Origin: Nostocales cyanobacterium Centralia_MAG_434
Lineage (GTDB): Bacteria > Cyanobacteriota > Cyanobacteriia > Cyanobacteriales > Nostocaceae
DNA length: 43,189 nucleotides
NCBI GenBank assembly: GCA_021324415.1
Contig: JAJPJF010000465.1
Coordinates: 1 to 43,189 of the forward strand
Reading direction: 5' to 3'
This document shows, in pieces, positions 3,900-19,641 of the stretch. The notes under the pieces were generated by a model, which saw only the letters and a list, made by a program, of their open reading frames with translations, was not told where the DNA came from and searched no databases. Position 1 is the stretch's first letter, and each line of letters begins with the position of its first letter. The translations under genes were made by a program, and so were the position numbers.

Positions 3900-6800
3900 A
3901 TGTTCACCCACGTCAAGTCCACCATTAGACATATGACGCCTGATAATTTGCGCGGACGGCGTTTAATTAAGGTGGTCTATGTCGTGTTAGAGTCCCAATA
4001 CCAGAGTGCCTTGTCACAAGCGGTTCGGGCGATTAACGAAAATAATCCTGACCTAGCGATAGAAATCAGTGGTTACTTAATTGAGGAACTCCGAGACCCA
4101 GAAAACTACGAGGAGTTTAAACGGGACATCGAGAGCGCCAATATTTTTATTGCCTCACTCATTTTTATCGAGGATTTAGCCCAGAAATTAGTAGCAGCAG
4201 TATCACCGCAGCGCGATCGCTTGGACGTTGCCGTAGTCTTTCCTTCTATGCCAGAAGTGATGCGCCTAAATAAAATGGGTAGCTTTTCTCTGGCACAGTT
4301 GGGTCAGTCTAAAAGCGTGATAGCACAGTTCATGCGAAAGCGCAAGGAAAAATCCGGCGCGGGTTTCCAAGATGGAATGCTGAAACTACTGAGAACACTG
4401 CCGCAAGTGCTAAAGTACCTCCCTATGGACAAAGCACAGGACGCACGACATTTCATGCTCAGCTTTCAGTATTGGCTAGGTGGTTCGCCAGAGAACCTGG
4501 AGAACTTCTTACTGATGCTAGCGGATAAATATGTATTGAAAGGTGTTCAGACGCGAAATTCTGCGTCCTTAGAATATAAAGAACCAGTTGTTTATCCTGA
4601 TATGGGGATTTGGCATCCTTTGGCACCCTCAATGTTTGAGGATGTTAGGGAATACCTCAACTGGTATATGAGCCGTAAGGATATAACTAGTGATTTAAAA
4701 GACCCATTAGCACCATGTATTGGGTTAGTACTACAACGTACGCACTTGGTGACAGGTGATGATGCTCACTATGTCGCAATAGTGCAAGAGCTTGAAGCCA
4801 GAGGTGCAAGGGTTATTCCTGTATTCGCTGGGGGGTTGGACTTCTCAAAACCCGTCGATGCGTACTTTTATGATCCAAGTCACCAAAAACAGGGAACAGC
4901 TTCTCACGCTCTTGTAGATGCAGTCGTCTCACTGACTGGTTTTGCATTGGTGGGTGGACCAGCACGTCAAGACCATCCCAAGGCGATTGAAGCTCTCAAG
5001 CGTTTGAATTGTCCTTATATGGTTGTGCTACCTCTGGTGTTCCAAACAACAGAGGAATGGATTAATAGTGATTTGGGTCTACACCCGATTCAAGTTGCTT
5101 TGCAAATTGCAATTCCTGAATTGGATGGTGCGATTGAACCAATTATTTTGTCGGGACGTGATGGAGCAACAGGAAAAGCGATCGCCCTACAAGATCGTGT
5201 CGAGTCCGTTGCCCAACGTGTTCTAAAATGGGCAAACCTACGGCGTAAGCCGAAGTTGGACAAGAAAGTTGCAATCACCGTGTTCAGCTTTCCACCAGAT
5301 AAAGGTAATGTAGGAACTGCTGCTTACTTGGATGTTTTTGGCTCTATTTACGAGGTGATGAAAGCCCTCAAGAATAATGGCTATGACGTGCAAGATTTGC
5401 CCGCAAGTACTCAAGAGTTGATGGAACAAGTCATCCATGACGCACAAGCGCAGTACAGCAGCCCTGAACTTAACATTGCCTACCGGATGTCAGTTCCTGA
5501 ATATGAAGAACTCACACCATACTCTCAAAGGTTAGAAGAGAACTGGGGACCACCACCAGGACATCTCAACAGCGATGGTCAAAACCTACTGATTTACGGT
5601 AAACACTTCGGTAATGTGTTTATTGGAGTGCAACCGACATTTGGTTACGAAGGTGACCCAATGCGGCTACTGTTTTCTCGTTCCGCAAGTCCGCACCACG
5701 GTTTCGCTGCTTACTACACCTACCTAGAAGAGATTTGGAAAGCTGACGCCGTATTGCACTTTGGCACTCATGGTTCTTTGGAATTCATGCCAGGCAAACA
5801 AATGGGGATGTCTGGGGAGTGTTATCCTGATAACCTGATTGGTTCGATCCCCAATCTCTACTACTACGCAGCAAATAATCCTAGTGAGGCGACAATTGCT
5901 AAGCGTCGTAGCTATGCAGAGACAATTTCCTATTTAACTCCTCCTGCAGAAAATGCCGGTTTATATAAAGGTTTGAAGGAACTTAGTGATTTGATTGGTT
6001 CCTACCAAACCCTGAAAGACTCTGGACGTGGCATTCCTATTGTTAATACCATCATGGATAAATGCCGGATGGTAAATTTGGACAAGGATATCGACATACC
6101 AGAGACTGACGCCAAAGATATGACCGTTGAAGAGCGGGATACTATTGTTGGCGTGGTATACCGCAAGTTGATGGAGATTGAATCCAGACTCTTACCATGT
6201 GGGTTACACGTCATTGGAAAACCCCCCAGTGCAGAGGAAGCAATTGCGACCTTAGTCAACATTGCCAGCTTGGATCGTTCTGAGGAAGAAATTCCCAGTT
6301 TGCCACGAATTATTGCTAGCAGTGTCGGGCGAGATATCGACGAAATTTACCAAAACAGCGACAAAGGCGTATTGGAAGATGTCCAGTTGCTGCAAGATAT
6401 CACAATGGCAACCCGCGCTGCAGTTTCTGCGCTTGTCCAAGAGCAAACCGATGCTGAAGGTAGGGTTTCCCTGGTTTCCAAGCTCAACTTTTTCAATATG
6501 GGTAAGAAAGAGCCTTGGATACAAGCGGTTGTGGATTTGGGATTCCCCATCTTAGACTCTAATTCCCAATTTTCCAATCCCAAATCTAAAATCCAAAGTC
6601 TATTTGAGTATTTGGAGTTTTGTCTACAACAAGTTTGTGCTGACAATGAATTAGGAGCATTGCTGAAAGGGTTAGAAGGTGAGTACATTCTACCTGGGCC
6701 TGGTGGTGATCCTATCCGTAACCCGGATGTTTTGCCCACAGGTAAAAATATCCACGCCCTTGATCCCCAAGCAATTCCTACCACTGCTGCTGTGCAATCA

Positions 6801-7928
6801 GCCAAAATTGTCGTAGACAGGCTCTTGGCACGTCAATCAGCAGACAACGGCGGTAAGTATCCAGAAACCATTGCCTGTGTTTTGTGGGGAACAGATAACA
6901 TCAAAACCTACGGGGAATCACTAGCACAAATTATGTGGATGATAGGTGTACGACCTGTTCCTGATGCTCTAGGAAGAGTCAATAAGTTAGAATTGATACC
7001 TCTAGAAGAGTTGGGACGTCCTCGCATTGATGTAGTGATCAACTGCTCTGGTGTATTTCGCGACCTATTTATCAATCAGATGAATCTGCTTGATCAAGGC
7101 GTGAAGATGGCAGCGGAAGCTGATGAGCCTCCTTCTATGAATTATGTCCGTAAACATGCCCTGCAGCAAGCAGAAGAAATGGGGATCAATTTGCGCCAAG
7201 CTGCAACTCGCGTCTTTTCCAATGCTTCTGGTTCATACTCGTCAAATATCAATTTAGCAGTAGAAAACAGCACTTGGGAGAGCGAAGCAGAATTGCAAGA
7301 AATGTATCTGAAGCGGAAGTCTTTTGCTTTCAGTGCTGATAACCCCGGTAGCATGGAACAATCTCGGCAGATTTTTGAAAGCACCTTGAAAACAGCTGAG
7401 GCGACTTTCCAAAATCTTGACTCTTCCGAGATCAGCTTGACAGATGTTTCTCACTACTTCGACTCTGATCCCACTAAGGTTGTTAGCAGCTTGCGGGGTG
7501 ATGGCAAAACACCAGCATCATACATTGCTGATACAACGACAGCTCATGCTCAAGTTCGTACTTTATCAGAGACCGTGCGTTTGGATGCCCGTACCAAGTT
7601 GTTGAATCCTAAGTGGTATGAGGGTATGCTGTCTCACGGTTATGAAGGTGTGCGGGAACTGTCAAAGCGGTTGGTCAATACAATGGGTTGGAGTGCAACT
7701 GCTGGTGCTGTTGATAACTGGATCTATGAGGATACCAATGCCACATTTATTCAGGATGAAGCAATGCGCAATCGCTTGATGAATCTCAATCCTCATTCTT
7801 TCCGAAAGGTTGTAAGCACTTTGTTGGAAGTGAATGGTCGTGGTTATTGGGAGACAAGTGAAAGCAATTTAGAATTGCTACGCGAGTTGTATCAGGAGGT
7901 TGAAGATCGAATAGAAGGGATTGAGTAG
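3900..7928 (+). CDS. chlH: magnesium chelatase subunit H (ChlH)
   Basis: This 1342-residue large subunit of Mg-chelatase binds protoporphyrin IX. With ChlI and ChlD (not in this window) it inserts Mg2+ in an ATP-dependent step, the first committed step to chlorophyll. The N-terminus [10 protein letters not shown] and the motifs [15 protein letters not shown] and [20 protein letters not shown] are hallmark CobN/ChlH sequence. The ATG start reproduces the usual family N-terminus. Residues 885-899 are a Ser/Asn/Lys-rich stretch encoded by a repeat-like sequence (6555-6599), which appears to be an in-frame insertion and may explain a length slightly above the roughly 1330 usual. A leader hairpin (3795-3827) and an intrinsic terminator (7956-7985) suggest a single-gene transcript. 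Confidence 0.97.
6555..6599. repeat. repeat-like insertion within chlH
   Basis: The sequence CCAATCCCAAATCTAAAATC followed by CAAA resembles the AATCC/AAATCTAAAATCC iterated spacer repeats common in filamentous cyanobacteria (recalled, not searched). It encodes the polar stretch around [15 protein letters not shown], between well-conserved ChlH blocks, and preserves the frame. Confidence 0.5.
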
Positions 7929-7955
7929 GTTCTAAATCTTTAGTAACTCCACAAG

Positions 7956-7985
7956 TAGAGACGTTGATATAACGTCTCTATTTTT
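7956..7985 (+). terminator. intrinsic terminator of chlH
   Basis: The stem TAGAGACGTT/AACGTCTCTA (10 bp, arms 7956-7965 and 7971-7980) has a GATAT loop and is followed by TTTTT. It begins 28 bp after the chlH stop and separates chlH from hicA. Confidence 0.85.
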
Positions 7986-8082
7986 GTGTCAATTTGTCTC
8001 AAGAATTCAACAAGTTGGTAGAAAGAGAAATTTCGACTTTGGTAGGATTAAATAGATAATCTAAGAGCTTTATTCAAATATC

Positions 8083-8349
8083 GTGAGTCAACAAGACCAA
8101 CTTTTATCTAAAATTCTCTTGGGAGTATCCGATGCAGACATTCCTTTTGTTCAATTGTGGCAACTATTGAACAAATTAGGCTTTGATGAACGTATTCGTG
8201 GTAGTCATTATATATTCACCAAAAAAGATGTTGAGGAAATCTTAAACCTACAACACAGCAAAGGAAAAGCCAAACCCTATCAAGTTAAAAAAGTTCGTGA
8301 GGTACTTCTTAAGTATCAGCTAGGAGGTCAAGATCATGCTCCGATATGA
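8083..8349 (+). CDS. hicA: HicA-family mRNA interferase toxin
   Basis: This 88-residue protein has the small dsRBD-like HicA fold. The region LLNKLGFDERIRGSHYIF carries the G-S-H motif whose His is catalytic in HicA toxins, which cleave mRNA when not held by HicB. The start is GTG at 8083, as no ATG is available in the right place. It overlaps hicB by 14 bp, so the pair is translationally coupled. The C-terminal extension after the fold contains a K-rich stretch. The pairing with a HicB-like protein makes the call firm, although toxicity is untested. Confidence 0.85.
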   Translation: MSQQDQLLSKILLGVSDADIPFVQLWQLLNKLGFDERIRGSHYIFTKKDVEEILNLQHSKGKAKPYQVKKVREVLLKYQLGGQDHAPI

Positions 8350-8611
8350 AATCGGAATCTACTGGAGTGAAGAAGACCAAGCATTTATTGCTGAAGTTCC
8401 AGAATTACCAGGTTGTGCTGCAGATGGTTCTACCTACCAAGAGGCATTACAAAATGTAGAAGTTGTTATGCAAGAGTGGATTAAGACAGCAAAAGAGTTG
8501 AAGCGTTCAATTCCTGAACCAAAGCATAACAAAATGTCTGTTGAATTGCTCGAGACTGAAGCACCACAAGCACTCCCTGAAGATTCAATAGTTAGTTTAA
8601 ATTTGTTATGA
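8336..8611 (+). CDS. hicB: HicB-family antitoxin
   Basis: This 91-residue protein has the RNase-H-like HicB N-domain, with the signature FIAEVPELPGCAADG and the following EALQNVEVVMQEW helix. HicB neutralises HicA and normally represses its own operon through a C-terminal DNA-binding domain. Here the C-terminus (about 65-91) is short and acidic with no clear helix-turn-helix or ribbon-helix-helix, so autoregulation by HicB is uncertain. The ATG lies inside the 3' end of hicA, and a purine-rich AGGAGG element (within 8321-8328) precedes it at good spacing. Confidence 0.87.
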   Translation: MLRYEIGIYWSEEDQAFIAEVPELPGCAADGSTYQEALQNVEVVMQEWIKTAKELKRSIPEPKHNKMSVELLETEAPQALPEDSIVSLNLL

Positions 8612-8618
8612 ATTTCTG

Positions 8619-9107
8619 TTAGAGCTTGAGACCCATGATGATCAAATCGCATTCAACACCATCAAGGTCTGCAACTTTGGGTAAATGTCCCCAACGTTGA
8701 AAGTTGAATTTTTGAAATAACTTCAAACTCGGGAGATTGTGGGCAAAAATTAAGCTTAATAAGGTCTTTATACCCAACCTAGGACTGCAGTGGATGGCTT
8801 GTGTTAAAAGTTGCTGTCCTAACCCACGTCGATGATATTGTGGTGCAATGTAAATACTAATCTCAGCAGTTGCATAGTAAGCTGGTCGCCCATAAAAGGA
8901 CTGAAAACTCAGCCATCCAGCAACCACATCCTCTACTTCAATGATCCAAAGGGGATGTTTTGAAGGGGATCGGTTATGAAACCAAGATAGACGGCTTTCG
9001 CACGACACTGGCTCTAAATCAGCAGTTGCTAGCCGATTAGGAATTGCAGAATTGTAAATAGCCACAATTGCTGGCAAATCAGCTTCAGTAGCATCACGAA
9101 TAGTCAT
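8619..9107 (-). CDS. GNAT N-acetyltransferase, phosphinothricin acetyltransferase-like
   Basis: This 162-residue protein is a complete GNAT domain. The acetyl-CoA pyrophosphate-binding loop is visible as YHRRGLGQQLL (R/Q-x-x-G-x-G), preceded by the beta-strand AEISIYIAPQ. The N-terminal MTIRDATEADLPAIVAIYN matches the PAT/MnaT subfamily, which acetylates amino groups of compounds such as phosphinothricin or methionine derivatives. The substrate here cannot be assigned. The sequence directly upstream of the ATG on its coding strand is a pyrimidine-rich tandem repeat (9109-9139) with no Shine-Dalgarno, which is unusual. It is convergent with hicB. Confidence 0.85.
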   Translation of the reverse strand: MTIRDATEADLPAIVAIYNSAIPNRLATADLEPVSCESRLSWFHNRSPSKHPLWIIEVEDVVAGWLSFQSFYGRPAYYATAEISIYIAPQYHRRGLGQQLLTQAIHCSPRLGIKTLLSLIFAHNLPSLKLFQKFNFQRWGHLPKVADLDGVECDLIIMGLKL

Positions 9108-9108
9108 T

Positions 9109-9139
9109 GGGGGAGTGGGGAGTTGGGGAGTTGGGGGGT
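9109..9139. repeat. GGGGAGT heptamer tandem repeat at a gene start
   Basis: G-rich units of the GGGGAGT type run from one base before the acetyltransferase ATG. They read as C-rich sequence on the coding strand. This is a typical cyanobacterial short tandemly repeated repetitive (STRR) sequence. Confidence 0.7.
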
Positions 9140-9159
9140 TAGGTCAATAATAATGCTGA

Positions 9160-9200
9160 TTGATAACTGATAACCGTTAACTGATAACTGTTAACTGTTT
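9160..9200. repeat. TGATAAC/TTAACTG heptamer repeat containing an ABC gene stop codon
   Basis: Tandem CTGATAA/CTGTTAA units run from 9160 to 9200. The stop codon and last two codons (Asn-Ser) of the ABC ATPase gene lie inside the repeat. Related arrays occur at 11616-11665, 33681-33703 and 33768-33801. Confidence 0.75.
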
Positions 9201-10852
9201 GCTAGTAAGGGAGCAGCAGCGAGTAGGGTTTTTGTATAAGGGTGTTGAGGATTGTTAAAAATCTGATTTTTAGAACCGATTTCTACAATTTTGCCACTGT
9301 TCATAACGGCGATGCGATCGCACAAAAAGCGAGCTAACCAGAGGTCATGAGTAATAAATAGATATGTTAAATCAAATTCTGCTTTTAAATGCAACATGAG
9401 ATCTAAAACTTGTGACTGCACACTAGCATCTAACATGCTCACTGGTTCATCGCAGATGATCAGTTTGGGACGAGTGATCAAAGCACGAGCAATGGCAACT
9501 CGTTGCTGCTGTCCACCAGACAGATCCGATGGATAACGATCTATATAAAGTTCTGGCGGGGTTAATCCCACTTTTTCCAACATCCAGACGACCTCTTGTT
9601 TTGCCTGATGTGGATCTGCTAGTTTGTGAATCAGCACAGGATCTGCAATACTTTGTCCAACTGTCATTGCTGGGTTCAAACAAGCGTGGGGATCTTGAAA
9701 AACCATTTGTATTTGTCGTCGCCACTGCCGTATTTCTTGACCCGATAGGGTTGTTAGATCCCGTCCCAAAAACTCGACTTTACCTGATGTTGGGCGGATA
9801 AGTTGCAATATCGTTCTTGATAGAGTACTTTTACCACAACCAGACTCCCCTACTAATCCTAAAATTTCCCCTGGATAAAGTTCCAGAGTAATATCATCCA
9901 CTGCTTTAATTGTCTGATTTTGGCTCTGAAACAGTCGCTCTACAAAGTTAGGTTCTAAGGTGTAGTACTGTTTTAAATTTGTGACACGCAAAATGGGGGA
10001 GACAGAGTTTAACGCCTCTCCCTTATTCCCGACTCCCGACTCCCCACTCCCCTGATCTGCCTGAATATGTAAAGCCGCTTGCAGGAGCGATCGCGTATAC
10101 TCATGTTGTGGATTTTGGAAAACATCTCGGGAAGACCCCATTTCTACCATTTTGCCCTTATACATGACCCCAATGCGATCACAATACTCGGCGACAACAG
10201 CCAGATCGTGAGAAATCAGCAGTAACGCCATGTTTTCTGCTGTACACAGTCGCGTTAATTCCTGCAAAATCTGAGCAGAGACTGTTACATCTAAGCTAGT
10301 TGTGGGTTCATCAGCAACAATTAATTTGGGGTTAAGGAGTAAAGCTAAGGCGATCGCCACCCTTTGGCGCATTCCTCCACTAAATTCGTGAGGATATTGA
10401 TTCCATCGACTAGCTGGAATCTTGACTTTTTCCAAGGTAGAGAGTGCTTTTGCCTTTGCCTCCCGTGTTGACAGTCCTGGTGAATGAGCCTTCAATGTTT
10501 CCAGACAATGATTGCCAATGGTCATCAACGGATCAAGGCGTGTCATGGGATCTTGAAATACCAACGCCACCACCTCTCCCCGAAATTGCCGTAATTCTGT
10601 TTGTGTGAGGTCAAACACCGAACGACCTTGAAACTTCACCATTCCCTCAATGCGACTAGAAGGTGGTAATAACCGCATTGCAGATCTGCCTAAGGTTGAT
10701 TTACCACAACCCGACTCTCCTACCAATCCCATTCTTTCACCAGGTTGTAAAGTGAAAGACACATCATCAACTGCCCAGATGGGCTGTTCATCATTATTAT
10801 GGGGATAAGCAATTCGTAAATTTTCTACACAAAATAAAGCTTCTCTCATCAA
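9191..10852 (-). CDS. oligopeptide/dipeptide-type ABC transporter, fused double ATP-binding protein
   Basis: This 553-residue protein has two complete ABC ATPase domains, equivalent to fused DppD and DppF (as in YejF or GsiA). Each has Walker A GESGCGKST (near residues 45 and 335), a signature (SGGMRQRVA near 158, SGGQQQRVA near 446), Walker B (LIVADEPTTSLD, LIICDEPVSMLD) and a switch His. C-terminal oligopeptide-transporter tails follow each domain. It should energise import of peptides or similar solutes, but its permeases and binding protein are not in the window. The inter-domain linker (about 267-276) is encoded by four heptamer repeats, and the stop codon lies in another tandem repeat. 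A second possible start is one codon in (MM). Confidence 0.93.
   Translation of the reverse strand: MMREALFCVENLRIAYPHNNDEQPIWAVDDVSFTLQPGERMGLVGESGCGKSTLGRSAMRLLPPSSRIEGMVKFQGRSVFDLTQTELRQFRGEVVALVFQDPMTRLDPLMTIGNHCLETLKAHSPGLSTREAKAKALSTLEKVKIPASRWNQYPHEFSGGMRQRVAIALALLLNPKLIVADEPTTSLDVTVSAQILQELTRLCTAENMALLLISHDLAVVAEYCDRIGVMYKGKMVEMGSSRDVFQNPQHEYTRSLLQAALHIQADQGSGESGVGNKGEALNSVSPILRVTNLKQYYTLEPNFVERLFQSQNQTIKAVDDITLELYPGEILGLVGESGCGKSTLSRTILQLIRPTSGKVEFLGRDLTTLSGQEIRQWRRQIQMVFQDPHACLNPAMTVGQSIADPVLIHKLADPHQAKQEVVWMLEKVGLTPPELYIDRYPSDLSGGQQQRVAIARALITRPKLIICDEPVSMLDASVQSQVLDLMLHLKAEFDLTYLFITHDLWLARFLCDRIAVMNSGKIVEIGSKNQIFNNPQHPYTKTLLAAAPLLANS
10025..10052. repeat. four heptamer repeats inside the ABC ATPase linker
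   Basis: ATTCCCG, ACTCCCG, ACTCCCC and ACTCCCC run in tandem (+ strand). They encode the Gly/Ser-rich linker GSGESGVGNK between the two ATPase domains, in frame. Confidence 0.75.
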
Positions 10853-10907
10853 AAAATAATCAATAATTAATGGTTAATAGTGAATAATCGATAGTCACTA
10901 CTGATTT

Positions 10908-11294
10908 TTATTTTGTATCCTCTGATTTTCCCTGATCCCCTTGGGGTTGCACAATAGCATTACAGTAATCGATGAGAATTCCTAAGCGATTAAGTAAGGC
11001 ATCGACTCTGACTTGCATAGTAGAAGCTTGCCGTGCCGCTTGAAAAAACATCACATCTATTTCCAGTAGTCGCATTTGCTTACTCATTTCTGTCTGATAA
11101 GACTGTACATGCCTTTGAGTAGCGCTATCTGTGACCTCTTCAGCTAAGGGAACAACCTGTTGCTGAAAAAATTGCTGCAATGATGTAGTATACTTCCGCA
11201 ATTGGGGTGTATCTAGTTGGTTCGCAATCAGCTCTGAGCGTAACTGCTCAAGCAAGGTTGTAAAGTCGTGATATTTTTGGTGGTTGAGAGACAT
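10908..11294 (-). CDS. patD: PatD-like heterocyst frequency control protein
   Basis: This 128-residue, largely helical protein has no membrane segment or catalytic motif. The pattern of an N-terminal YHDFTTLLEQLR, the central QSYQTEMSKQMRLLEIDVMF and the helix RVDALLNRLGILIDYC matches the PatD family as I remember it from heterocyst-forming cyanobacteria. There PatD tunes heterocyst frequency and is linked to FtsZ. The ATG start gives the expected length. It lies 55 bp upstream of the ABC gene on the same strand and is divergent from rel1 across 399 bp. The identification is by pattern memory, so moderate confidence; otherwise it would be a conserved helical protein. Confidence 0.72.
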   Translation of the reverse strand: MSLNHQKYHDFTTLLEQLRSELIANQLDTPQLRKYTTSLQQFFQQQVVPLAEEVTDSATQRHVQSYQTEMSKQMRLLEIDVMFFQAARQASTMQVRVDALLNRLGILIDYCNAIVQPQGDQGKSEDTK

Positions 11295-11693: not shown

Positions 11694-13958
11694 ATGAGCG
11701 GTATAGTGTTAGATTCCTCGATTGATATTTCCCTTCCAGAATGGTTACAAAAGTGTTTTAACAGCCCATCTGCAGAAGGGGCTGAACCTAGAAACGACCA
11801 GAGGACTGCTGAGACAGTCTTGATTCGCCGAGCATTTCAATTTGCCTATCAACTACATAAAGGTCAATACCGCAAATCAGGAGAACCCTACATTTGTCAT
11901 CCAATAGCAGTAGCGGGATTGTTACGTGACTTAGGCGGAAGTGCTGCTATGATAGCAGCTGGATTCCTCCATGATGTAGTTGAAGATACGGATGTGACAA
12001 TTGAAGAGATCGAGCAGCACTTTGGTGTTGAAGTGCGACGATTGGTCGAAGGGGTCACTAAGTTATCAAAACTGAATTTCAAAACCAAAACCGAAAATCA
12101 GGCAGAGAACTTTCGCCGCATGTTCTTAGCAATGGCGCAAGACATTCGAGTGATTGTGGTTAAGTTGGCAGATCGATTGCATAATATGCGTACACTCGAA
12201 CATCTGCCGGATGAAAAACGCAGACGAATTGCTTTAGAGACTAGGGAAATCTTTGCACCGTTAGCCAACCGCTTGGGAATATGGTGGATGAAATCGGAAC
12301 TAGAAGACTTGGCATTTAAGTACCTCGAAGGCGAGGCTTACCAGCAAATTGTGCAGTATGTGTCTGAAACAAAGACCTCGCGTCAACAGAGATTAGCTCA
12401 ATCGACAGAAATATTAAGTCAGCGTTTGCAGCAAGCTAGCATTGCTTATCTTGATATTAGTGGACGTTCTAAACATCTTTATAGTATTTATCAGAAAATG
12501 CTGCTGTCCCACAAAGACTCACAAGAAGTCTATGATGTGGCAGCGCTACGAATTATTGTGAAAACCAATGAGGAATGCTATCGTGCTTTGGCGGTAGTGC
12601 ATGACGTTTTTCGTCCAATTCCTGGCAAATTCAAAGATTATATAGGTTTGCCAAAACCGAATCTTTACCAATCGCTACATACTTCTGTCATTGGTCCTGA
12701 TGGGCGTCCTTTGGAATTACAGATCCGCACTTTGGTCATGCACCATGTTTCTGAGTACGGAATTGCAGCTCACTGGAAGTACAAAGAAACTGGAGGGATC
12801 GCTAACACTAAGCCGAGTGCGGTGAATGAGAAGTTTACCTGGTTGCGGCAATTGCTAGAGTGGCAAAGCGACTTAAAGGATGCTCAGGAATATTTAGAAA
12901 GTATTAAAGATAACTTATTTGAAGATGATGTTTACGTCTTCACTCCTAAGGGGGATTTGGTTGCCTTAAATCCTGGTTCTACGACGGTGGACTTTGCCTA
13001 TCGCATTCACACAGAAGTCGGGAACCATTGTGCAAGAGCCAGAGTCAATGGACGGATAGTACCACTCTCTACCCGATTACAAAACGGCGATATTGTGGAG
13101 ATTATTACACAAAAGAATAGTCATCCCAGTTTGGATTGGTTAAACTTTGTCAGAACTTCGGCAGCAAAAAACCGGATTAAACAATGGTACAAGCAATCGC
13201 GCCGTGAAGAAAATGTTGCCCGTGGCCGAGAATTGTTAGAAAAAGAACTTGGGAAAACGGGTGTAGAAAGTTGGCTTCAGTCAGAACAAATGCAGACTGT
13301 AGTGCAGCAGTGTAATTACCAATCACTAGAAGATTTACTTGCAGCTTTGGGTTATGGTGAAATTACACTAAACCTCGTACTCAGTCGTTGGCGAGAAGTG
13401 GTGAAAGCGCAACAACCAATTGCCATTTTGCCTCCAACTCTATCAAAGAAAAACCCAACACCAAAAGCATTACCAGATGCAATTTCTGGATTTAGTGATT
13501 CCCCAATGGTTGGTGTAGAAGGGTTAGAGTATCATCTGGCTAAGTGTTGTCATCCCCTTCCTGGGGAGCCAATTATCGGTGTTGTCACTCGAAGTAAAGG
13601 CATTTCAATTCATCGCCAATGCTGTCATCATTTGGCAAATGTCAAGTGTACTCATTTAGTTCCGGTGAGTTGGAACACAACAGTAGTAGACGATAACACT
13701 CATATAGAGACTTACCCAGTAGACGTACAGATTGAAGCTTTAGATCGGGTAGGAGTCCTCAAAGATATTTTGTCACGCTTAAGTGACCAAGGAATAAATG
13801 TGCGCCATGCTAATGTTAAAACTGCTATTGGTCAGCCAGCCTTGATAGACTTAGGAATAGATATACGCGATCGCGCTCAACTTGAACAAATTTTTTCGAA
13901 AATTAAAAAACTGAGCGACATTATTAGTATTCGCCGCGTTGGTCAAACTGATGAGTAG
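11694..13958 (+). CDS. rel: Rel1: bifunctional (p)ppGpp synthetase/hydrolase (RelA/SpoT family)
   Basis: This 754-residue long RSH protein contains an HD hydrolase domain (about 45-200), synthetase (about 255-365), TGS (about 412-473), a helical and zinc-finger region (CCHPLPGEP near 614) and ACT (about 678-750). Hydrolase metal ligands H69, H93, D94 and D160 are present, and so are synthetase D281 and E341. The RxKD bifunctionality motif reads KFKD (312-315). The normally invariant Gly of PKxNGYQS is Leu324, which is odd. It makes and degrades (p)ppGpp in starvation signalling. An unusually short spacer separates it from its paralogue: 149 bp to rel2. Of the three, it is the only one with every domain intact. 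Confidence 0.95.
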   Translation: MSGIVLDSSIDISLPEWLQKCFNSPSAEGAEPRNDQRTAETVLIRRAFQFAYQLHKGQYRKSGEPYICHPIAVAGLLRDLGGSAAMIAAGFLHDVVEDTDVTIEEIEQHFGVEVRRLVEGVTKLSKLNFKTKTENQAENFRRMFLAMAQDIRVIVVKLADRLHNMRTLEHLPDEKRRRIALETREIFAPLANRLGIWWMKSELEDLAFKYLEGEAYQQIVQYVSETKTSRQQRLAQSTEILSQRLQQASIAYLDISGRSKHLYSIYQKMLLSHKDSQEVYDVAALRIIVKTNEECYRALAVVHDVFRPIPGKFKDYIGLPKPNLYQSLHTSVIGPDGRPLELQIRTLVMHHVSEYGIAAHWKYKETGGIANTKPSAVNEKFTWLRQLLEWQSDLKDAQEYLESIKDNLFEDDVYVFTPKGDLVALNPGSTTVDFAYRIHTEVGNHCARARVNGRIVPLSTRLQNGDIVEIITQKNSHPSLDWLNFVRTSAAKNRIKQWYKQSRREENVARGRELLEKELGKTGVESWLQSEQMQTVVQQCNYQSLEDLLAALGYGEITLNLVLSRWREVVKAQQPIAILPPTLSKKNPTPKALPDAISGFSDSPMVGVEGLEYHLAKCCHPLPGEPIIGVVTRSKGISIHRQCCHHLANVKCTHLVPVSWNTTVVDDNTHIETYPVDVQIEALDRVGVLKDILSRLSDQGINVRHANVKTAIGQPALIDLGIDIRDRAQLEQIFSKIKKLSDIISIRRVGQTDE

Positions 13959-14107
13959 TTAAAAGACCATCGCTATTAGAAAGCAAGCTTAAGCTATCTA
14001 GCAGCCTAACGCAAACAACAATAATCTGTTGACGCTAAAAAACCCAATTTTCGGGTAACTTTCTAACTTAAAAATCGAGTACCTTTTGTTTTGATTGGAT
14101 AAATTGT

Positions 14108-15934
14108 ATGAGCAGTATATTATTGGATTCCTCAATTGATATTACTCTTCCCGAATGGCTACAAAAATGTTTTCATAGCCCATCGCCAAAGGACCGTAAG
14201 CAAGGTGAAACAGACCTGATTTGTCAAGCATTTGAATTTGCTTATGACTTACACGAAGGTCAGTACCGCAAATCAGGAGAACCCTACATCTGTCATCCGA
14301 TGGCGGTGGCTGGACTATTGCGTGATTGGGGAGGTACTGCTCCTATGATAGCAGCTGGGTTCCTCCATGATGTAGTTGAAGATACAGATGTGACAATTGA
14401 TGAGATCGAACAGCGCTTCGGTGTTGAAGTGCGGCGATTGGTTGAAGGGGTCACTAAACTATCAAAGCTGAATTTCAAAAGCAAAACTGAAAATCAGGCA
14501 GAGAACTTTCGCCGCATGTTCTTGGCAATGGCGCAAGATATCCGGGTGATTGTCGTTAAGCTGGCTGACCGATTACATAATATGCGCACACTCGAACACC
14601 TTAAGGAAGAAAAACGTCGCCAAATAGCTTTAGAAACGAGGGAAATTTTTGCTCCTATCGCTCAGCGCTTAGGGATGTGGCGGGTAAAATCGGAACTAGA
14701 GGACTTGGCGTTCAAGTACATTGAAGGTGAGGCTTACCAGCAAATTGTGCAGTATGTAGAGGAAAACGAGACCTTACGCCAACAGAGGTTTGCTCAATCA
14801 ACAGCAATCTTACGCCAGCGTTTTCAGCAAACTGGAATCGAGTGTCTCGAAATTAGTGAGCGTTCTAAGCATCTTTATGGCATTTATCAGAAGATGCTCA
14901 TGTCACAAAAAGACTCACAGGAAATTTATGATTTTGCAGTGCTACGGATAATTGTCAAGACGAATGAGGAATGTTATCGTACCTTAGCTGTGGTGCATGA
15001 TATCTTCCGCCCGGTTCCTGGTCGTTTTAGTGATTATATTGGTCTGCCTAAGCCTAATAACTATCAATCGTTACATACAGTTGTTGTTGGCACTACAGGA
15101 AAACTGCTAGAGGTTCAAATCCGGACCCTAGAAATGGATTATTTGGCAGAGTATGGAATTACAGCATACTGGAGACTTGGCCACTTACTAGATTTCTCTC
15201 AGTTACCTCCTCAACAGCATCAGACAAGACAAAGTGAACTGGCTTGGATCTCTCAGTTATCAACTCAACATAACCAGCAAAAAATGAGTGAATTTGCGTG
15301 GTTAAATGATCTCGTTGCGTGTAACGACGATATTTGTGATGCAACTGAGTATATCCAAAGCATAAAAAATGATTTAACAATGGAGGAAATATATGTTTTT
15401 ACTCCAAAAGGAGATTTAATATCGTTACCCTCTAAATCAACACCTATAGATTTTGCTTATAAAATCCATACAAATGTCGGTAACCGATTGGTTAGCGTCA
15501 AAGTCAATGGCGAATTTGCTAGTGAAGTGGCTGTGTTAAGCACTGGTGACACAGTTGAGATCCTGACAGATGAGAATGCAGAACCTAAATTAGCTTGGAT
15601 CAAGCAAGTTGCTACAAATAAAGCCAAAAATGCAATTAGAAGATGGTACAAATATCAATACAAGAGTGAATTAAAAGCAAAGTTACTGCCGGAGTATCTA
15701 GTACCTGTTGTCACTTTTAAGTTTCTCTGTATCGATAGAATAGGAATATTGAAGGACATTATAGAAAGATTTTATAGATATAAAATTAATGTACAGGCTG
15801 TCCGTGTGGAAACAAATAGTAAGGGGATAGCTGATATCCATGTTTCCATTGAGTCCAAGGATGCAGAAAAATTGAATGAATGTGTTAGAGAAGTAGCAAA
15901 AATATCAGACATTTTGGATTTCAGGGTTGTGTAA
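14108..15934 (+). CDS. Rel2: RelA/SpoT paralogue with divergent short C-terminus
   Basis: This 608-residue protein is very similar to Rel1 from residue 1 to about 357, including matching first residues. Hydrolase ligands H63, H87, D88 and D154 and synthetase D275 and E335 are kept. The RxKD motif reads RFSD (306-309), the GRxK Gly is Glu251, and the PKxNGY Gly is Asn318, so synthetase efficiency is doubtful. After residue 360 the sequence changes: a Gln-rich insert, a diverged TGS (about 430-490) and a short ACT-like end. The helical and zinc-finger region of Rel1 is absent. The DNA of this second half is clearly more AT-rich. It is probably hydrolase-competent, with uncoupled ribosome sensing (inference). 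Confidence 0.9.
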   Translation: MSSILLDSSIDITLPEWLQKCFHSPSPKDRKQGETDLICQAFEFAYDLHEGQYRKSGEPYICHPMAVAGLLRDWGGTAPMIAAGFLHDVVEDTDVTIDEIEQRFGVEVRRLVEGVTKLSKLNFKSKTENQAENFRRMFLAMAQDIRVIVVKLADRLHNMRTLEHLKEEKRRQIALETREIFAPIAQRLGMWRVKSELEDLAFKYIEGEAYQQIVQYVEENETLRQQRFAQSTAILRQRFQQTGIECLEISERSKHLYGIYQKMLMSQKDSQEIYDFAVLRIIVKTNEECYRTLAVVHDIFRPVPGRFSDYIGLPKPNNYQSLHTVVVGTTGKLLEVQIRTLEMDYLAEYGITAYWRLGHLLDFSQLPPQQHQTRQSELAWISQLSTQHNQQKMSEFAWLNDLVACNDDICDATEYIQSIKNDLTMEEIYVFTPKGDLISLPSKSTPIDFAYKIHTNVGNRLVSVKVNGEFASEVAVLSTGDTVEILTDENAEPKLAWIKQVATNKAKNAIRRWYKYQYKSELKAKLLPEYLVPVVTFKFLCIDRIGILKDIIERFYRYKINVQAVRVETNSKGIADIHVSIESKDAEKLNECVREVAKISDILDFRVV

Positions 15935-16190
15935 TTAAAATACAGTCATCACCAAACATATTAGAAAGCATCTTCTAAACACTAAGAAACATTGTGAAGG
16001 AGGATTAAACAAATATTCTAGGGAAAAAATAGTAAGTGCACGAAAGAAAGTGCTGGAAGTCATGATTGATGAGCTTAACGCAACACGAAAGTTGTAATTG
16101 TTACACATTTTCCAGTATTACTCTGAAGATTCCTAGAATAAGAAACAAAAGAGTCGTGTAAAGATGTAGCGAAATTGACAAGGTGGTTAT

Positions 16191-18578
16191 ATGACCTTAA
16201 TTTCAGGAAAAACACATACTGATTTTAACCTTACTAATTTAATTAGAAGTGAGAAAAGAGATATTAATACAAGCATTAGTGATGATAAAATGCTTGATTT
16301 TTTGAGCAAGCTAGAAGAGGAAAATTTTTTCTCAACGCCTATTGGACAGATAGTAGAACTTGTTGCAAAAGAACTATATAACCTAACGTTAGATTTAAAT
16401 ATAGCTATTGCTGGACTGATTTACACATATTCATCAATAAATAAAGAGACTTCTCAGCAAGAGATAGAAAGTACAGTCAATTCTAATACAGACATTTCTA
16501 ATCTCTTGAAAAGTTTAAAAATACTATCTAAATGTATATCAAAATTTAAATTAACGCCTAATTCTAATATTAACTTCTTTGAAGGAGAAAATTTTAGAAG
16601 ACTAATAATTGTTGTGACTAGAGATATCAGAGCGCTAGTCATTGAACTTGTTTATAGACTTGTTATCCTGGAAAATATTAATCGAATTAGAGGCTTAAAA
16701 GCATTTTTAAAAGATAGCTTTACAATTGAAACATTTAAAATTTTTGTGCCAATTGCAAATAGATTAGGCCTTTGGAATATTAAATGGAAGTTAGAAGATT
16801 TTTCATTTAGAGAATTAGAACCAGAAATTTACTTTAAAATTGTCTCTCTACTTTCTGAAAACCGCTCAGAAAGAGAGAAGTATATGAATTACTGTATTGA
16901 TGAAATCCGTAATAAACTTATAGAAAACGGTTTCGTAGGTAATAAATTTGATGTTTCAGGAAGAACAAAAAACATATATAGTATATATGCAAAAATGAAG
17001 CAACTTTACTGCTATAGTAAAGGTTTAGTGCCTAGCAAATTGCCGTCGCATGAGTTTAACAAGTTTCTATCTAGTAACTTTAATTCTTGTTTTGAAGCTG
17101 TATACGACTTGTTCGGTATTAGAGTCATCTGCAGTTCAATCCCAGACTGTTATGCTGCTTTAGGACTCATACACAGTTTATTTCGGCCAGCACAAACTCC
17201 TAGAAGGAATAGTAGTCACTTCATTGATTACATCGCTGCACCAAAATCAAATGGCTATCGTTCCCTTCACACGGTTGTGATTGGACCAATGCACAAGAGG
17301 TTAGAAGTTCAGATCAGAACTTATGAAATGAATGCCCAAGCAGAATATGGTGTTGCTGCTCATTGGAAATATAAAGAGTTTGGTCATTCACAATCTACTA
17401 ACAAAGAAGAATATATATTTGCTGATATTAAAAAAGTCATCAACGAGCAGGGTCTGGCTGCTGTTCACAACTTTCTTGAAGGTTTGGATAGTGATATCTT
17501 TGGCGCAGAAATATATGTATTTACTCCCAGAGGAGACGTGATATCTCTGTCTCAAGCTTCAACTCCGGTTGATTTTGCTTACCGAGTTCATACAGAAGTG
17601 GGGAACCACTGTGCTGGGGCGCGGGTGAATGGACGGATGGTAACGCTAGATACACCATTGAAAAATGGTGACATAGTTGAGATCATTACCCAGAAAAATT
17701 CTCACCCTAGTTTGGATTGGCTAAACTTTGTCGCTACCTCAGGCGCGCGCAACCGTATTCGTCAATGGTACAAGCGATCGCACCGTACAGAACATATTGC
17801 TCGTGGTCGGGAGTTATTAGAAAAAGAACTGGGCAAACCTGGGTTTGAAAATGTGCTCAAATCAGAACAGATGCACGCAGCAGCCCAAAGGTGTAATTAC
17901 CATTCCACAGAGGATTTACTAGCAGCCTTGGGTTATGGTGAAATCACACTCACTCAAGTGGTAAATCGTTGGCGGGATGAGGTGAAAGCCCTACAACCCA
18001 TTGATCTCGCACCCCAAATTCCTGTAAAAGAGCCAACAACGACACCCAAAGTACCACGGGAGGTCTCTTCTACCACCACACGTCCAAACGACTCGCCCAT
18101 TATTGGGGTAGAAGGGTTGATGTATTATTTGGCTGGGTGTTGTCATCCCATTCCTGGAGAAGCGATTACTGGTGTGGTAACCAGAGGGAGGGGAATTTCA
18201 ATACATCGCCAAGGATGTCATAATTTGGAACGTGTGGAGAGCGATCGCTTCATCCCAGTCAAGTGGAACCAAGCTGCAGAAAACAATAGTCGCCAAGAGA
18301 CTTACCCAGTGAAAGTGCAAATTGAAGCCTTAGATCGGGTGGGAGTCCTCAAAGATATTTTGTCCCGCCTCAGCGACCAAGGAATAAACGTACGCCATGC
18401 TAGTGTCAAAACAGCTATTGGTCAATTGGCCTTAATCGACTTGGGAATAGATATACGTACTCGTGCTCAACTTGAGCAAGTCTTCACCCAAATTAAGAAA
18501 ATCAGTGATATTCGTACTATTCGGCGCGTTGGTGAGTATGCTTTTACCCAAAACTTGGACAAAAAGGACATGATATAG
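16191..18578 (+). CDS. Rel3: hydrolase-dead RelA/SpoT paralogue (predicted synthetase-only)
   Basis: This is a 795-residue protein. The N-terminal pseudo-HD region has lost every metal ligand. The His of CHP is replaced by Thr49, HD of FLHD by Y78-T79, and the Asp of KLADRL by Tyr155. The synthetase region (about 255-395) keeps D306 and E372 and the canonical PKSNGYRSLHT, but RxKD reads HFID (343-346), and an insertion of roughly 25 residues precedes YDLFGIR. From about residue 445 the TGS, helical, zinc-finger (CCHPIPGEA) and ACT regions closely follow Rel1. The first half is strikingly AT-rich and the second half is not. The ATG start follows GACAAGGTGG. It resembles E. coli RelA in logic: synthesis without hydrolysis. 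Confidence 0.92.
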   Translation: MTLISGKTHTDFNLTNLIRSEKRDINTSISDDKMLDFLSKLEEENFFSTPIGQIVELVAKELYNLTLDLNIAIAGLIYTYSSINKETSQQEIESTVNSNTDISNLLKSLKILSKCISKFKLTPNSNINFFEGENFRRLIIVVTRDIRALVIELVYRLVILENINRIRGLKAFLKDSFTIETFKIFVPIANRLGLWNIKWKLEDFSFRELEPEIYFKIVSLLSENRSEREKYMNYCIDEIRNKLIENGFVGNKFDVSGRTKNIYSIYAKMKQLYCYSKGLVPSKLPSHEFNKFLSSNFNSCFEAVYDLFGIRVICSSIPDCYAALGLIHSLFRPAQTPRRNSSHFIDYIAAPKSNGYRSLHTVVIGPMHKRLEVQIRTYEMNAQAEYGVAAHWKYKEFGHSQSTNKEEYIFADIKKVINEQGLAAVHNFLEGLDSDIFGAEIYVFTPRGDVISLSQASTPVDFAYRVHTEVGNHCAGARVNGRMVTLDTPLKNGDIVEIITQKNSHPSLDWLNFVATSGARNRIRQWYKRSHRTEHIARGRELLEKELGKPGFENVLKSEQMHAAAQRCNYHSTEDLLAALGYGEITLTQVVNRWRDEVKALQPIDLAPQIPVKEPTTTPKVPREVSSTTTRPNDSPIIGVEGLMYYLAGCCHPIPGEAITGVVTRGRGISIHRQGCHNLERVESDRFIPVKWNQAAENNSRQETYPVKVQIEALDRVGVLKDILSRLSDQGINVRHASVKTAIGQLALIDLGIDIRTRAQLEQVFTQIKKISDIRTIRRVGEYAFTQNLDKKDMI

Positions 18579-18808: not shown

Positions 18809-19141
18809 ATGGCAGTAACACAAATTACATGCGTAGAATCTAGCCTTACTGATCGTTATCAGACTACAATCCCTGATTCTGTTCGCAAAATTCTTGGCTT
18901 AAGTAAGCGCGATAAAATTTGCTACACCATTCAGTCCGATGGTAAAGTCGTCATTTCCCGCGCTAAGCAGACGGAGAGCGATCCTGTCCTGGGACAGTTT
19001 CTGAATTTTCTTGCACGAGATATTGAAAAAAATCCTCAGCATTTACAAGCGCTTAGCCCTGATTTAGTTAATCATGTTCAATCCTTGGTTGCTGAAGTTG
19101 ATTTCGATCTTGATGCCCCACTCTCTGATGAGGATGAATAG
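18809..19141 (+). CDS. prlF: PrlF-type (AbrB/SpoVT fold) antitoxin
   Basis: This 110-residue protein has an N-terminal swapped-hairpin DNA-binding domain: SSLTDRYQTTIPDSVRKILG, then DKICYTIQSDGKVVIS. The C-terminal half is acidic and helical, and would bind the toxin. PrlF (SohA) neutralises YhaV ribonuclease and represses the operon. Start ATG at 18809; the gene ends 2 bp before the toxin start, so the two are coupled. The palindrome at 18748-18775 is the expected operator. Confidence 0.88.
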   Translation: MAVTQITCVESSLTDRYQTTIPDSVRKILGLSKRDKICYTIQSDGKVVISRAKQTESDPVLGQFLNFLARDIEKNPQHLQALSPDLVNHVQSLVAEVDFDLDAPLSDEDE

Positions 19142-19143
19142 AT

Positions 19144-19641
19144 TTGTCTATAAATCAGATGCTAGTGATCAATGGGTGGAGCATATTTGCCCATCCTCTC
19201 TTTCTCAAGCAGTTTGATGAACTTTTGGCGCAAGTTGAGCGTTTGCGCCAGAAGTATCCTAAAGACTACAAGAGAAAAAACGCTACAAAGCGTCTAGCTG
19301 CCATAGCAAAGCTGGCATTTGAAATTATTCCTCAAGATCCAACACGTAGTGATTATCGCCAAGGCACAACGCTTGGTGATGACTATAAGCACTGGTTCAG
19401 AGCTACATTTTTTCAGCAGTACCGACTGTTTTTTCGATATCATCTAGAGAGCAAAATCATTGTTTACGTTTGGGTTAATGATGAGAACTCTAAGCGAGCT
19501 TACGAAAGTAGCACAGATGCTTATCGAGTTTTTAAGAAAATGCTTGAAAGTGGTCACCCTCCAGACGATTGGAACACCTTACTTGAAGAGGCAAAGGGTG
19601 AGATTAATCGTTTAGAGGAAATAGTCGAAGTAGAAATTTAA
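19144..19641 (+). CDS. yhaV: YhaV-family ribonuclease toxin
   Basis: This 165-residue protein matches the YhaV family through NGWSIFAHPLFL, the basic stretch KRKNATKRLAAI, QQYRLFFRYHLE, YVWVNDENSKRAYES and TDAYRVFKKMLESGHPPDDW. YhaV is a RelE-superfamily ribonuclease inhibited by PrlF. The start is chosen as TTG at 19144, because GAGGA (19130-19134) lies 9 nt upstream. ATG at 19159 is the alternative and would still give the complete conserved domain. No damage is visible, so the module is probably functional. Confidence 0.88.
   Translation: MSINQMLVINGWSIFAHPLFLKQFDELLAQVERLRQKYPKDYKRKNATKRLAAIAKLAFEIIPQDPTRSDYRQGTTLGDDYKHWFRATFFQQYRLFFRYHLESKIIVYVWVNDENSKRAYESSTDAYRVFKKMLESGHPPDDWNTLLEEAKGEINRLEEIVEVEI

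Follow-up and report, generated by a model that had tools for sequence, protein, structure and literature searches.

The stretch analysed here, in the following termed the window, is contig JAJPJF010000465.1 of Nostocales cyanobacterium Centralia_MAG_434 in its entire length of 43,189 bp (contig C448 of a genome of 8.4 Mb on 551 contigs, 99.98% complete) and carries three consecutive long RelA/SpoT genes, Rel1, Rel2 and Rel3, all read in the same direction (Table 1). Long Rel enzymes make and destroy ppGpp, the signal of starvation. Each of the three proteins exceeds the cut-offs of Pfam RelA_SpoT and NCBIfam TIGR00691 (whole-protein scores of 870.7, 619.6 and 571.5 bits for Rel1, Rel2 and Rel3, respectively, with a curated cut-off of 499.2 for the latter profile), such that the matches are not due to chance. 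The array and its short spacers, as reported in an initial annotation of this DNA, are confirmed, and concerning further rel genes, a search of the own genome with Pfam RelA_SpoT matches Rel1 to Rel3 and no fourth gene. An HD_4 search matches these three and one HD-only protein on contig C173 (L082, G000:C173:141-533; PF13328, 94.3 bits), which is small-alarmone-hydrolase-like. An assembly artefact is unlikely, because an independent metagenome-assembled genome (MAG) holds Rel2 and Rel3 in tandem as well and because the copies are unlike each other.

Table 1. Position of the three rel genes, of the residues discussed in the text and of adjoining features in the window (residue numbers of substituted synthetase positions according to E. 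coli RelA; G524, MAG of a second genus)
Feature	Position	Strand	Remarks
patD	10908..11294	-	divergent neighbour of Rel1; outside the Rel2-Rel3 module; NF037954 match
Rel1	11694..13958	+	754 amino acids (aa); HD-SYNTH-TGS-AH/RIS-ACT; based on open reading frame (ORF) calls and profile matches
Rel1 hydrolase residues H69, H93, D94, E97, D98	11898..11987	+	intact; correspond to SpoT H48, H72, D73, E76, D77
Rel1 KFK of the RFKD motif	12627..12635	+	R306K; R in 30/30 canonical rows
Rel1-Rel2 spacer	13959-14107		149 bp
Rel2 leader	14060..14107	+	resembles the Rel1 leader in both species
Rel2	14108..15934	+	608 aa; HD, SYNTH (residues changed), TGS, ACT; without AH/RIS; predicted hydrolase-only
Rel2 hydrolase residues H63, H87, D88, E91, D92	14294..14383	+	5/5 tested intact
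Rel2 E251 codon	14858..14860	+	at E. coli RelA G251; G251E-type change
Rel2 S308 codon	15029..15031	+	replaces the Lys of RFKD; K in 30/30 canonical rows
Rel2 Y354 codon	15167..15169	+	at E. coli RelA H354; H354Y-type change; H in 30/30 canonical rows
Rel2-Rel3 spacer	15935..16190	+	256 bp; partly conserved in G524, best adjoining the Rel3 start codon
Rel3	16191..18578	+	795 aa; degenerate pseudo-HD, SYNTH with insertions, complete TGS-AH/RIS-ACT; predicted synthetase-only
Rel3 lost hydrolase residues E56, Y78, T79, S82, I83	16356..16439	+	at SpoT H48, H72, D73, E76, D77
Rel3 HFID	17217..17228	+	replaces RFKD (bifunctional) or EXDD (monofunctional)
Rel3 RIS/zinc-finger Cys-Cys pair	18138..18143	+	corresponds to RelA C612-C613; also in Rel1, absent from Rel2

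Concerning the catalytic residues, 20 synthetase positions and five positions of the HD domain (numbered after E. coli RelA and SpoT, respectively) were compared with 30 canonical Rel sequences, i.e., those that were fetched, 18 of them chosen as best matches to the N-terminal part of Rel3, such that the set is non-random; R252, P253, K254, R306, K308 and H354 are found in all 30. In Rel3, all five tested HD residues are lost, both in the own species and in the second genus (G524), and the HD match is weak (46.1 bits), which bears out the loss of the hydrolase that the initial annotation had claimed for one of the proteins. The synthetase domain of Rel3 keeps 16 of the 20 positions (G251, R252, K254, S258, K262, D275, D309, K315, N317, Y319, S321, H323, E335, Q337, R339 and H354) and is changed at the remaining ones (T253, R320, H306, I308). 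The HFID motif is present in Rel3 of both species, and EXDD is not found in them. All three proteins possess the TGS histidine that reads the CCA end of the tRNA (H432 in RelA); the Cys pair of the RIS is missing from Rel2 together with the AH/RIS (zinc-finger) region. Both the TGS histidine and the RIS are described as contacts with the tRNA and the ribosome (PMC7058999, in the part available). Judged by these residues, an ability to sense starved ribosomes is expected for Rel3 but not for Rel2. The AlphaFold models are of middling confidence (mean predicted local distance difference test scores of 72.7 and 73.8, the latter for Rel3) and are given little weight; the best Foldseek match of the Rel3 model is ribosome-bound RelA, at a low TM-score of 0.36.

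The five HD residues are kept in Rel1 and Rel2 of both species. In its synthetase domain, Rel2 of both species exhibits E251, S253 and Y354, plus S308 or Q308. For E. coli RelA, G251E is described as abolishing and H354Y as reducing ppGpp synthesis (PMC4154780, accessible text). The "shortened regulatory end" that had initially been ascribed to one of the proteins is thus found in Rel2 in that AH/RIS is absent, but the change goes further than that, as substitutions of an inactivating type in the synthetase had gone unmentioned. Concerning the absent region, the accessible part of PMC7058999 describes that Rel of Bacillus subtilis still hydrolyses without its zinc-finger domain (ZFD) and RRM, and that the ZFD is required for recruitment to the ribosome. 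Rel1, which was said to possess all sites, does so for the hydrolase; its synthetase carries P253S and R306K at two positions that are invariant in the 30 canonical rows, the other 18 of the 20 positions being kept (among them R252, K308 and H354). In G524, the synthetase of Rel1 exhibits H252 (R252H), S253, K306 and Q354 (H354Q), and with these residues it is probably impaired. Residues unseen in the canonical rows thereby amount to two of the 20 synthetase positions in the own Rel1 and to four in that of G524.

A scan of named genomes with Rel3 yields three loci, i.e., two loci of Marinoscillum (30-31% identity) and contig CAIVAU010000107.1 (L004) of an uncultured-cyanobacterium MAG (G388; G524, with identical matches), G524 being assigned to another genus of the same family as the own genome. 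On this contig, Rel2 (6513-8285) and Rel3 (8526-10883) follow each other in tandem within a neighbourhood unlike that of the window, and they are 81% and 82% identical, respectively, to their orthologues there. The full-length Rel (Rel1) of G524 is situated on a separate contig beside patD. Because of this location on separate contigs, it is Rel2-Rel3, and not the triple, that constitutes the conserved module. An alarmone module with separate sources of synthesis and hydrolysis had been proposed for all three genes; the residue changes suggest such separate sources, the conserved module being Rel2-Rel3. No close relative of the C-terminus of Rel2 or of Rel3 is found on plasmids (every match below 60% identity), nor is there one of the C-terminus of Rel2 on viral contigs.

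Among 217 genomes of the family Nostocaceae (TIGR00691, E <= 1e-40, up to five candidates scored per genome, such that divergent extra copies could be missed), 216 possess a match and 211 exactly one long Rel (table read by eye). More than one match is found in the own genome (3), G524 (3), G412 (3), G413 (2) and G440 (2). The three matches of G412 consist of one canonical Rel and pieces of a single 980-aa Rel3-like gene, and it is not counted as a triple-Rel genome; the second Rel of G440 was rejected as a further case as well, since it probably belongs to a contaminant contig (L074, G440:C46, which reads GC-rich and on which genes resembling gmk, long Rel, ridA and recG were named by eye). 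The three-protein set therefore occurs in two genomes (own and G524), and all three genes stand in tandem in the own genome only, such that tandem triples are not common in the family and the array is unusual, as initially supposed. The sole genome without a long Rel match (G430) is listed as 99% complete.

The N-terminal part of Rel3 is matched at E <= 1e-35 in three of the 217 family genomes (own, G524, G412), a cut that missed the Rel3-like gene of G413, and in one of 388 genomes of the class sample, namely the own; the C-terminal part of Rel2 is matched at E <= 1e-38 in two of the 217 (own, G524). In the sample of the order (n = 388, E <= 1e-8), G352 holds the only other clear relative of Rel3 (51% identity, residues 169-298). 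RelA_SpoT matches exist in 378 of the 388 order-sample genomes, with three matches in the own genome alone (table read by eye); genomes with two matches pool long and short types.

All three proteins are under purifying selection. Between the own genome and G524, the ratio of nonsynonymous to synonymous substitutions (dN/dS) is 0.123 for Rel1, 0.102 for Rel2 and 0.104 for Rel3, values that are rough, as dS is near 1. Within the synthetase domain, dN is 0.147 in Rel1, 0.116 in Rel2 and 0.041 in Rel3 (canonical pair: 0.040), within the HD domain 0.061, 0.078 and 0.085 (canonical pair: 0.031). With a dN of practically the canonical value, the synthetase of Rel3 is constrained about like an ordinary one and is the best conserved of the three; those of Rel1 and Rel2 are looser. 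These rates bear on the possibility that the extra copies are redundant duplicates heading for loss. This would agree with the loss of some catalytic residues, with dN/dS of 0.10-0.12 as compared to 0.045 in a canonical pair, and with the occurrence of the Rel set in very few genomes; a dN/dS of around 0.10 at a dS of around 1 between genera, intact reading frames and the retention of the pair in both genera, however, make it highly improbable. The retention of several non-catalytic domains under purifying selection in each protein could mean that Rel2 or Rel3, instead of being an independent enzyme, mainly regulates Rel1 in a non-catalytic manner or within hetero-oligomers, and the degenerate HD of Rel3, still predicted to be helical, as well as the Foldseek match to ribosome-bound RelA (TM-score 0.36) would be compatible with this. 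A pure regulator would, however, not need the HD residues of Rel2 and most of the synthetase positions of Rel3, which are kept, and this explanation is regarded as improbable.

In G524, 15 of 147 codons of shared residues differ between the HD domains of Rel1 and Rel2, as compared to 50 of 136 between the Rel1 orthologues (Fisher p ~1e-7) and to 35 of 89 in the synthetase domains of the same two genes (p 3.5e-7). So few differences in HD point to a recent gene conversion in G524, which would have kept HD similar between Rel1 and Rel2 as the synthetase domains of the two diverged. Between the ACT domains of Rel1 and Rel3 of G524, 15 of 65 codons differ, as compared to 31 of 68 between the Rel3 orthologues (p 0.01, uncorrected).

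In windows of 20 codons within the own genome, the identity of Rel2 to Rel1 amounts to 60-100% as far as residue 360 (50% at 21-40), drops to 5% at 361-380 and remains at 20-60% beyond, whereas that of Rel3 to Rel1 amounts to 10-60% as far as residue 440 and to 45-100% from there on (21% at 581-600). The two proteins are thus mirror-image mosaics, Rel2 with a canonical N-terminal and a divergent C-terminal half, and Rel3 with the reverse. Since the Rel2 leader resembles that of Rel1 in the own genome as well as in G524, an origin of the N-terminal part of Rel2, including the 5' leader, from a duplicate of Rel1 in the common ancestor fits the data.

Columns with more than half gaps were removed from the alignments, and in one set of domain trees, rows less than half filled were omitted (39 to 41 of 41 kept); E. 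coli rows were left out of the other trees and approximately unbiased (AU) tests except those naming E. coli or the TGS or ACT of Rel2, Rel2 was left out of the C-terminal trees, seven canonical rows were left out of the AU-tested sets, and the Rel3-like row of G352 was left out of the AU test of Rel2 ACT. In the SYNTH trees, Rel3 groups with Rel3-like proteins (support 1.0 and 100), and a placement with the Rel of the family, apart from the Rel3-like proteins, is rejected (p 4.4e-6). In the AH/RIS-ACT trees, it groups with the Rel of the family (1.0 and 100), and in the tree of the whole TGS-ACT part, it stands just outside the family Rel plus Rel1 (0.987); a grouping of the AH/RIS-ACT part with the Rel3-like proteins is not rejected (p 0.476). 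When E. coli is included in the SYNTH tree, the Rel3 group joins E. coli RelA (94.7), and the AU test does not reject the alternative in which the E. coli proteins stand together (p 0.40). An origin within the family is likewise not rejected for the SYNTH of the Rel3 group (p 0.088 with E. coli; without E. coli, it is already grouped there, support 89), for the TGS of Rel2 (p 0.247) or for the ACT of Rel2 (p 0.536). A foreign chimera is therefore not claimed, because local duplication with lopsided acceleration and conversion is a possible origin by these tests.

Concerning the more distant relatives of Rel3, G413 possesses a single Rel3-like gene in addition to a canonical Rel. The three Rel3-like proteins resemble Rel3 in the loss of all five HD residues and exhibit E306-A308-D309 (EXAD), which is nearer to the EXDD of RelA. 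The Rel3-like genes of G413 and G352, which belong to two families of the order, adjoin a Trypco1 gene and a trypsin-NB-ARC-TPR protein (L073:10076-13063 in G413; L049:2122-5212 in G352, with the trypsin-NB-ARC-TPR as two ORFs); in G412, the contig ends before the place of these genes. The Rel3-like gene of G352 (L049:5568-8470) stops early at 862 aa and is followed by an ACT-like ORF of 100 aa, such that its C-terminal part may be broken or split. In G412, an N-terminal match to TIGR00691 lies in a frame of 226 aa (L079:6261-6941). Pairings of trypsin and Trypco are described for predicted conflict systems (PMC7159879, accessible text).

This neighbourhood raises the question of whether Rel1 is a full housekeeping Rel and Rel2-Rel3 an accessory antagonistic pair, in which a potentially toxic synthetase would be held in check by an adjacent hydrolase, similar to toxin-antitoxin or defence systems. 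The conflict-type genes beside the distant relatives, the conservation of the two genes side by side, at sites that differ between the two genera, and weak PADLOC matches to PDC-S33 (47 bits for Rel3, 35.7 bits for Rel2) would agree with such a pair. The PDC-S33 match falls on the synthetase part, however, neither Trypco1 nor trypsin genes were seen among the ORFs listed near the pair in the own genome and in G524 (where not every neighbour was searched with profiles), and both proteins are long enzymes of several domains, each with a regulatory C-terminus and a low dN/dS; on balance, this explanation appears rather unlikely. Equally doubtful, when taken as a whole, is a broader scenario in which Rel2-Rel3 would form a self-contained module of long RelA/SpoT homologues (RSHs), inherited in adjacency as mirror-image mosaics, the synthetase would stem from an accessory enzyme linked to conflict systems and be tamed by a canonical ribosome-sensing tail, and conversion with Rel1 would update the hydrolase and sensor halves while the specialisations persist.

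The explanation that is favoured here, and which we consider fairly probable on the basis of the residues and domains, is that an ancestral bifunctional Rel has been split into specialised long enzymes with a division of labour like that of RelA and SpoT. Rel3 would be a dedicated (p)ppGpp synthetase acting on starved ribosomes, as E. coli RelA, because its HD residues are gone and 16 of the 20 synthetase positions as well as the TGS and RIS contact residues are kept. Rel2 would be a dedicated hydrolase without ribosome control, setting the off-rate, given its intact HD, the absence of AH/RIS, and the G251E- and H354Y-type changes and the loss of the Lys of RFKD in both species. Rel1 would be the ancestral enzyme drifting towards hydrolysis, with a hydrolysis-biased background turnover, because of R252H and H354Q in the sister genus and the milder P253S and R306K in the own genome.

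Several points weigh against this division of labour. Of the 20 synthetase positions, residues unseen in the canonical rows number four in the own Rel2, five in Rel2 of G524 and four in each Rel3, such that the count alone does not separate a synthetase from a non-synthetase; what counts is therefore the identity of the changed positions, together with the lack of AH/RIS and the substitution rates, and because of these similar numbers the split is regarded as no more than fairly probable. Rel2 keeps D275, E335 and most other synthetase positions; S258G of the own Rel2 has no diagnostic value, since 13 of the 30 canonical rows possess G there; two canonical rows exhibit A at position 251, and SpoT possesses E at 253, such that 251, 253 and 258 taken alone are not decisive. 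HFID together with Q320R leaves the activity and the nucleotide preference of Rel3 uncertain, and the own Rel1, with 18 of the 20 positions kept, may be fully bifunctional. The TGS histidine is kept in Rel2, unlike in the hydrolase-only SpoT of Acinetobacter baumannii. In the latter, according to the accessible text of PMC9974481, hydrolysis decreases fivefold upon loss of RRM-ZFD and 42-fold when TGS-HEL is lost as well; by analogy with these truncations, the missing HEL-ZFD may weaken hydrolysis by Rel2. Furthermore, the Rel1-Rel2-Rel3 set is known from two draft genomes only, the dN/dS of the canonical pair (G324-G321, dS 1.63) lies below those of all three Rels, the ratios themselves being rough, and the contrast between HD and SYNTH of Rel1 and Rel2 is not significant in the own genome (p 0.27).

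Rel1 is 72-80% identical to the Rel of nine other genomes fetched (L041-L048, eight genomes, and L040, i.e., G388), and a divergent patD homologue stands beside that Rel in all of L040-L048; in L040, L043, L045 and L046, the ABC-transporter gene and an acetyltransferase-like ORF of the window (named by eye) are found nearby as well. In four further loci (L075-L078), a patD homologue of 34.6-57.8% identity adjoins rel, the most distant being that of L078 (34.6% over 78 residues). Including the window, in which patD reaches 138.9 bits with profile NF037954 (cut-off 50), patD thus adjoins rel in all 14 loci examined, the other loci having been fetched with a flank of about 1.5 kb and not scanned for patD. 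Rel1 occupies the ancestral site beside patD and is orthologous to the single Rel that is canonical in cyanobacteria. PatD affects heterocyst frequency (PMC12288457, accessible text), and its position beside the array had been pointed out in this connection; as patD is the ancestral neighbour of an ordinary rel, it does not tie the triplication to heterocyst control and was rejected as special evidence of a functional partnership. According to the accessible text of PMC4284465, the single RelA/SpoT gene of Anabaena could not be deleted, and reports on heterocysts are conflicting.

A prlF-yhaV type II toxin-antitoxin pair is situated directly downstream of Rel3 (window 18809-19641; Pfam PF15937, PF11663); in L004, inspection by eye of the ORFs listed around Rel2-Rel3 revealed no such pair, a profile search for it not having been made there. 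Scans for promoters and terminators yielded signals at shuffle level.

The split into RelA and SpoT in beta- and gamma-proteobacteria is the standard case of a separation of alarmone synthesis and hydrolysis. An analogous split in a cyanobacterium of the heterocyst-forming family, if true, and with G251E- and H354Y-type changes in one of the enzymes, would allow a comparison of the reasons for which bacteria keep the two activities apart, as well as a natural test of the residues and domains that determine their balance; should the organism form heterocysts, it might be asked whether cell types use different Rel proteins. In the available text of PMC3153485, three Nostocales genomes are listed with one Rel[HS] and small hydrolases, and in that of PMC4284465, three cyanobacteria with two RelA/SpoT copies, without a statement in that passage of whether both are long. 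In the open literature, outside of which most subscription papers lie and which was covered by listings and the beginnings of abstracts, no report of a split-function long Rel in a cyanobacterium was found.

The organization proposed here is similar to that of several known systems, as far as these are covered by the accessible parts of the respective publications. PMC3153485 describes the split into RelA[hS] and SpoT[HS] in gamma- and beta-proteobacteria, which is completed in Moraxellaceae, as well as RshB of Bacteroidetes. As in RelA/SpoT, a bifunctional Rel would have been duplicated, one copy losing the HD site and the other one hydrolysing; in contrast, the present case concerns another phylum, a near-canonical third Rel is kept, the two genes are adjacent as a conserved pair, Rel3 possesses HFID instead of EXDD, and Rel2 lacks AH/RIS. 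Since EXDD is absent, Rel3 is not assigned to RelA. With the hydrolase-only SpoT[Hs] of A. baumannii (Moraxellaceae; PMC9974481; PDB 7qpr), Rel2 shares the intact HD, the changed synthetase region and the kept TGS, whereas HEL and ZFD are present and the TGS histidine is absent in that SpoT, Rel2 being the opposite in both respects; Rel2 is not assigned to SpoT[Hs] for this reason. RshB is likewise a second long RSH that is specific to its lineage and has a diverged HD domain, but a hydrolase-only partner and a tandem pair are not mentioned for it in the accessible text. Finally, the toxSAS systems resemble the pair in that a synthetase is encoded beside a possibly counteracting protein; their synthetases are small alarmone synthetases, whereas both partners described here are long RSHs with TGS and ACT (795 aa in Rel3).

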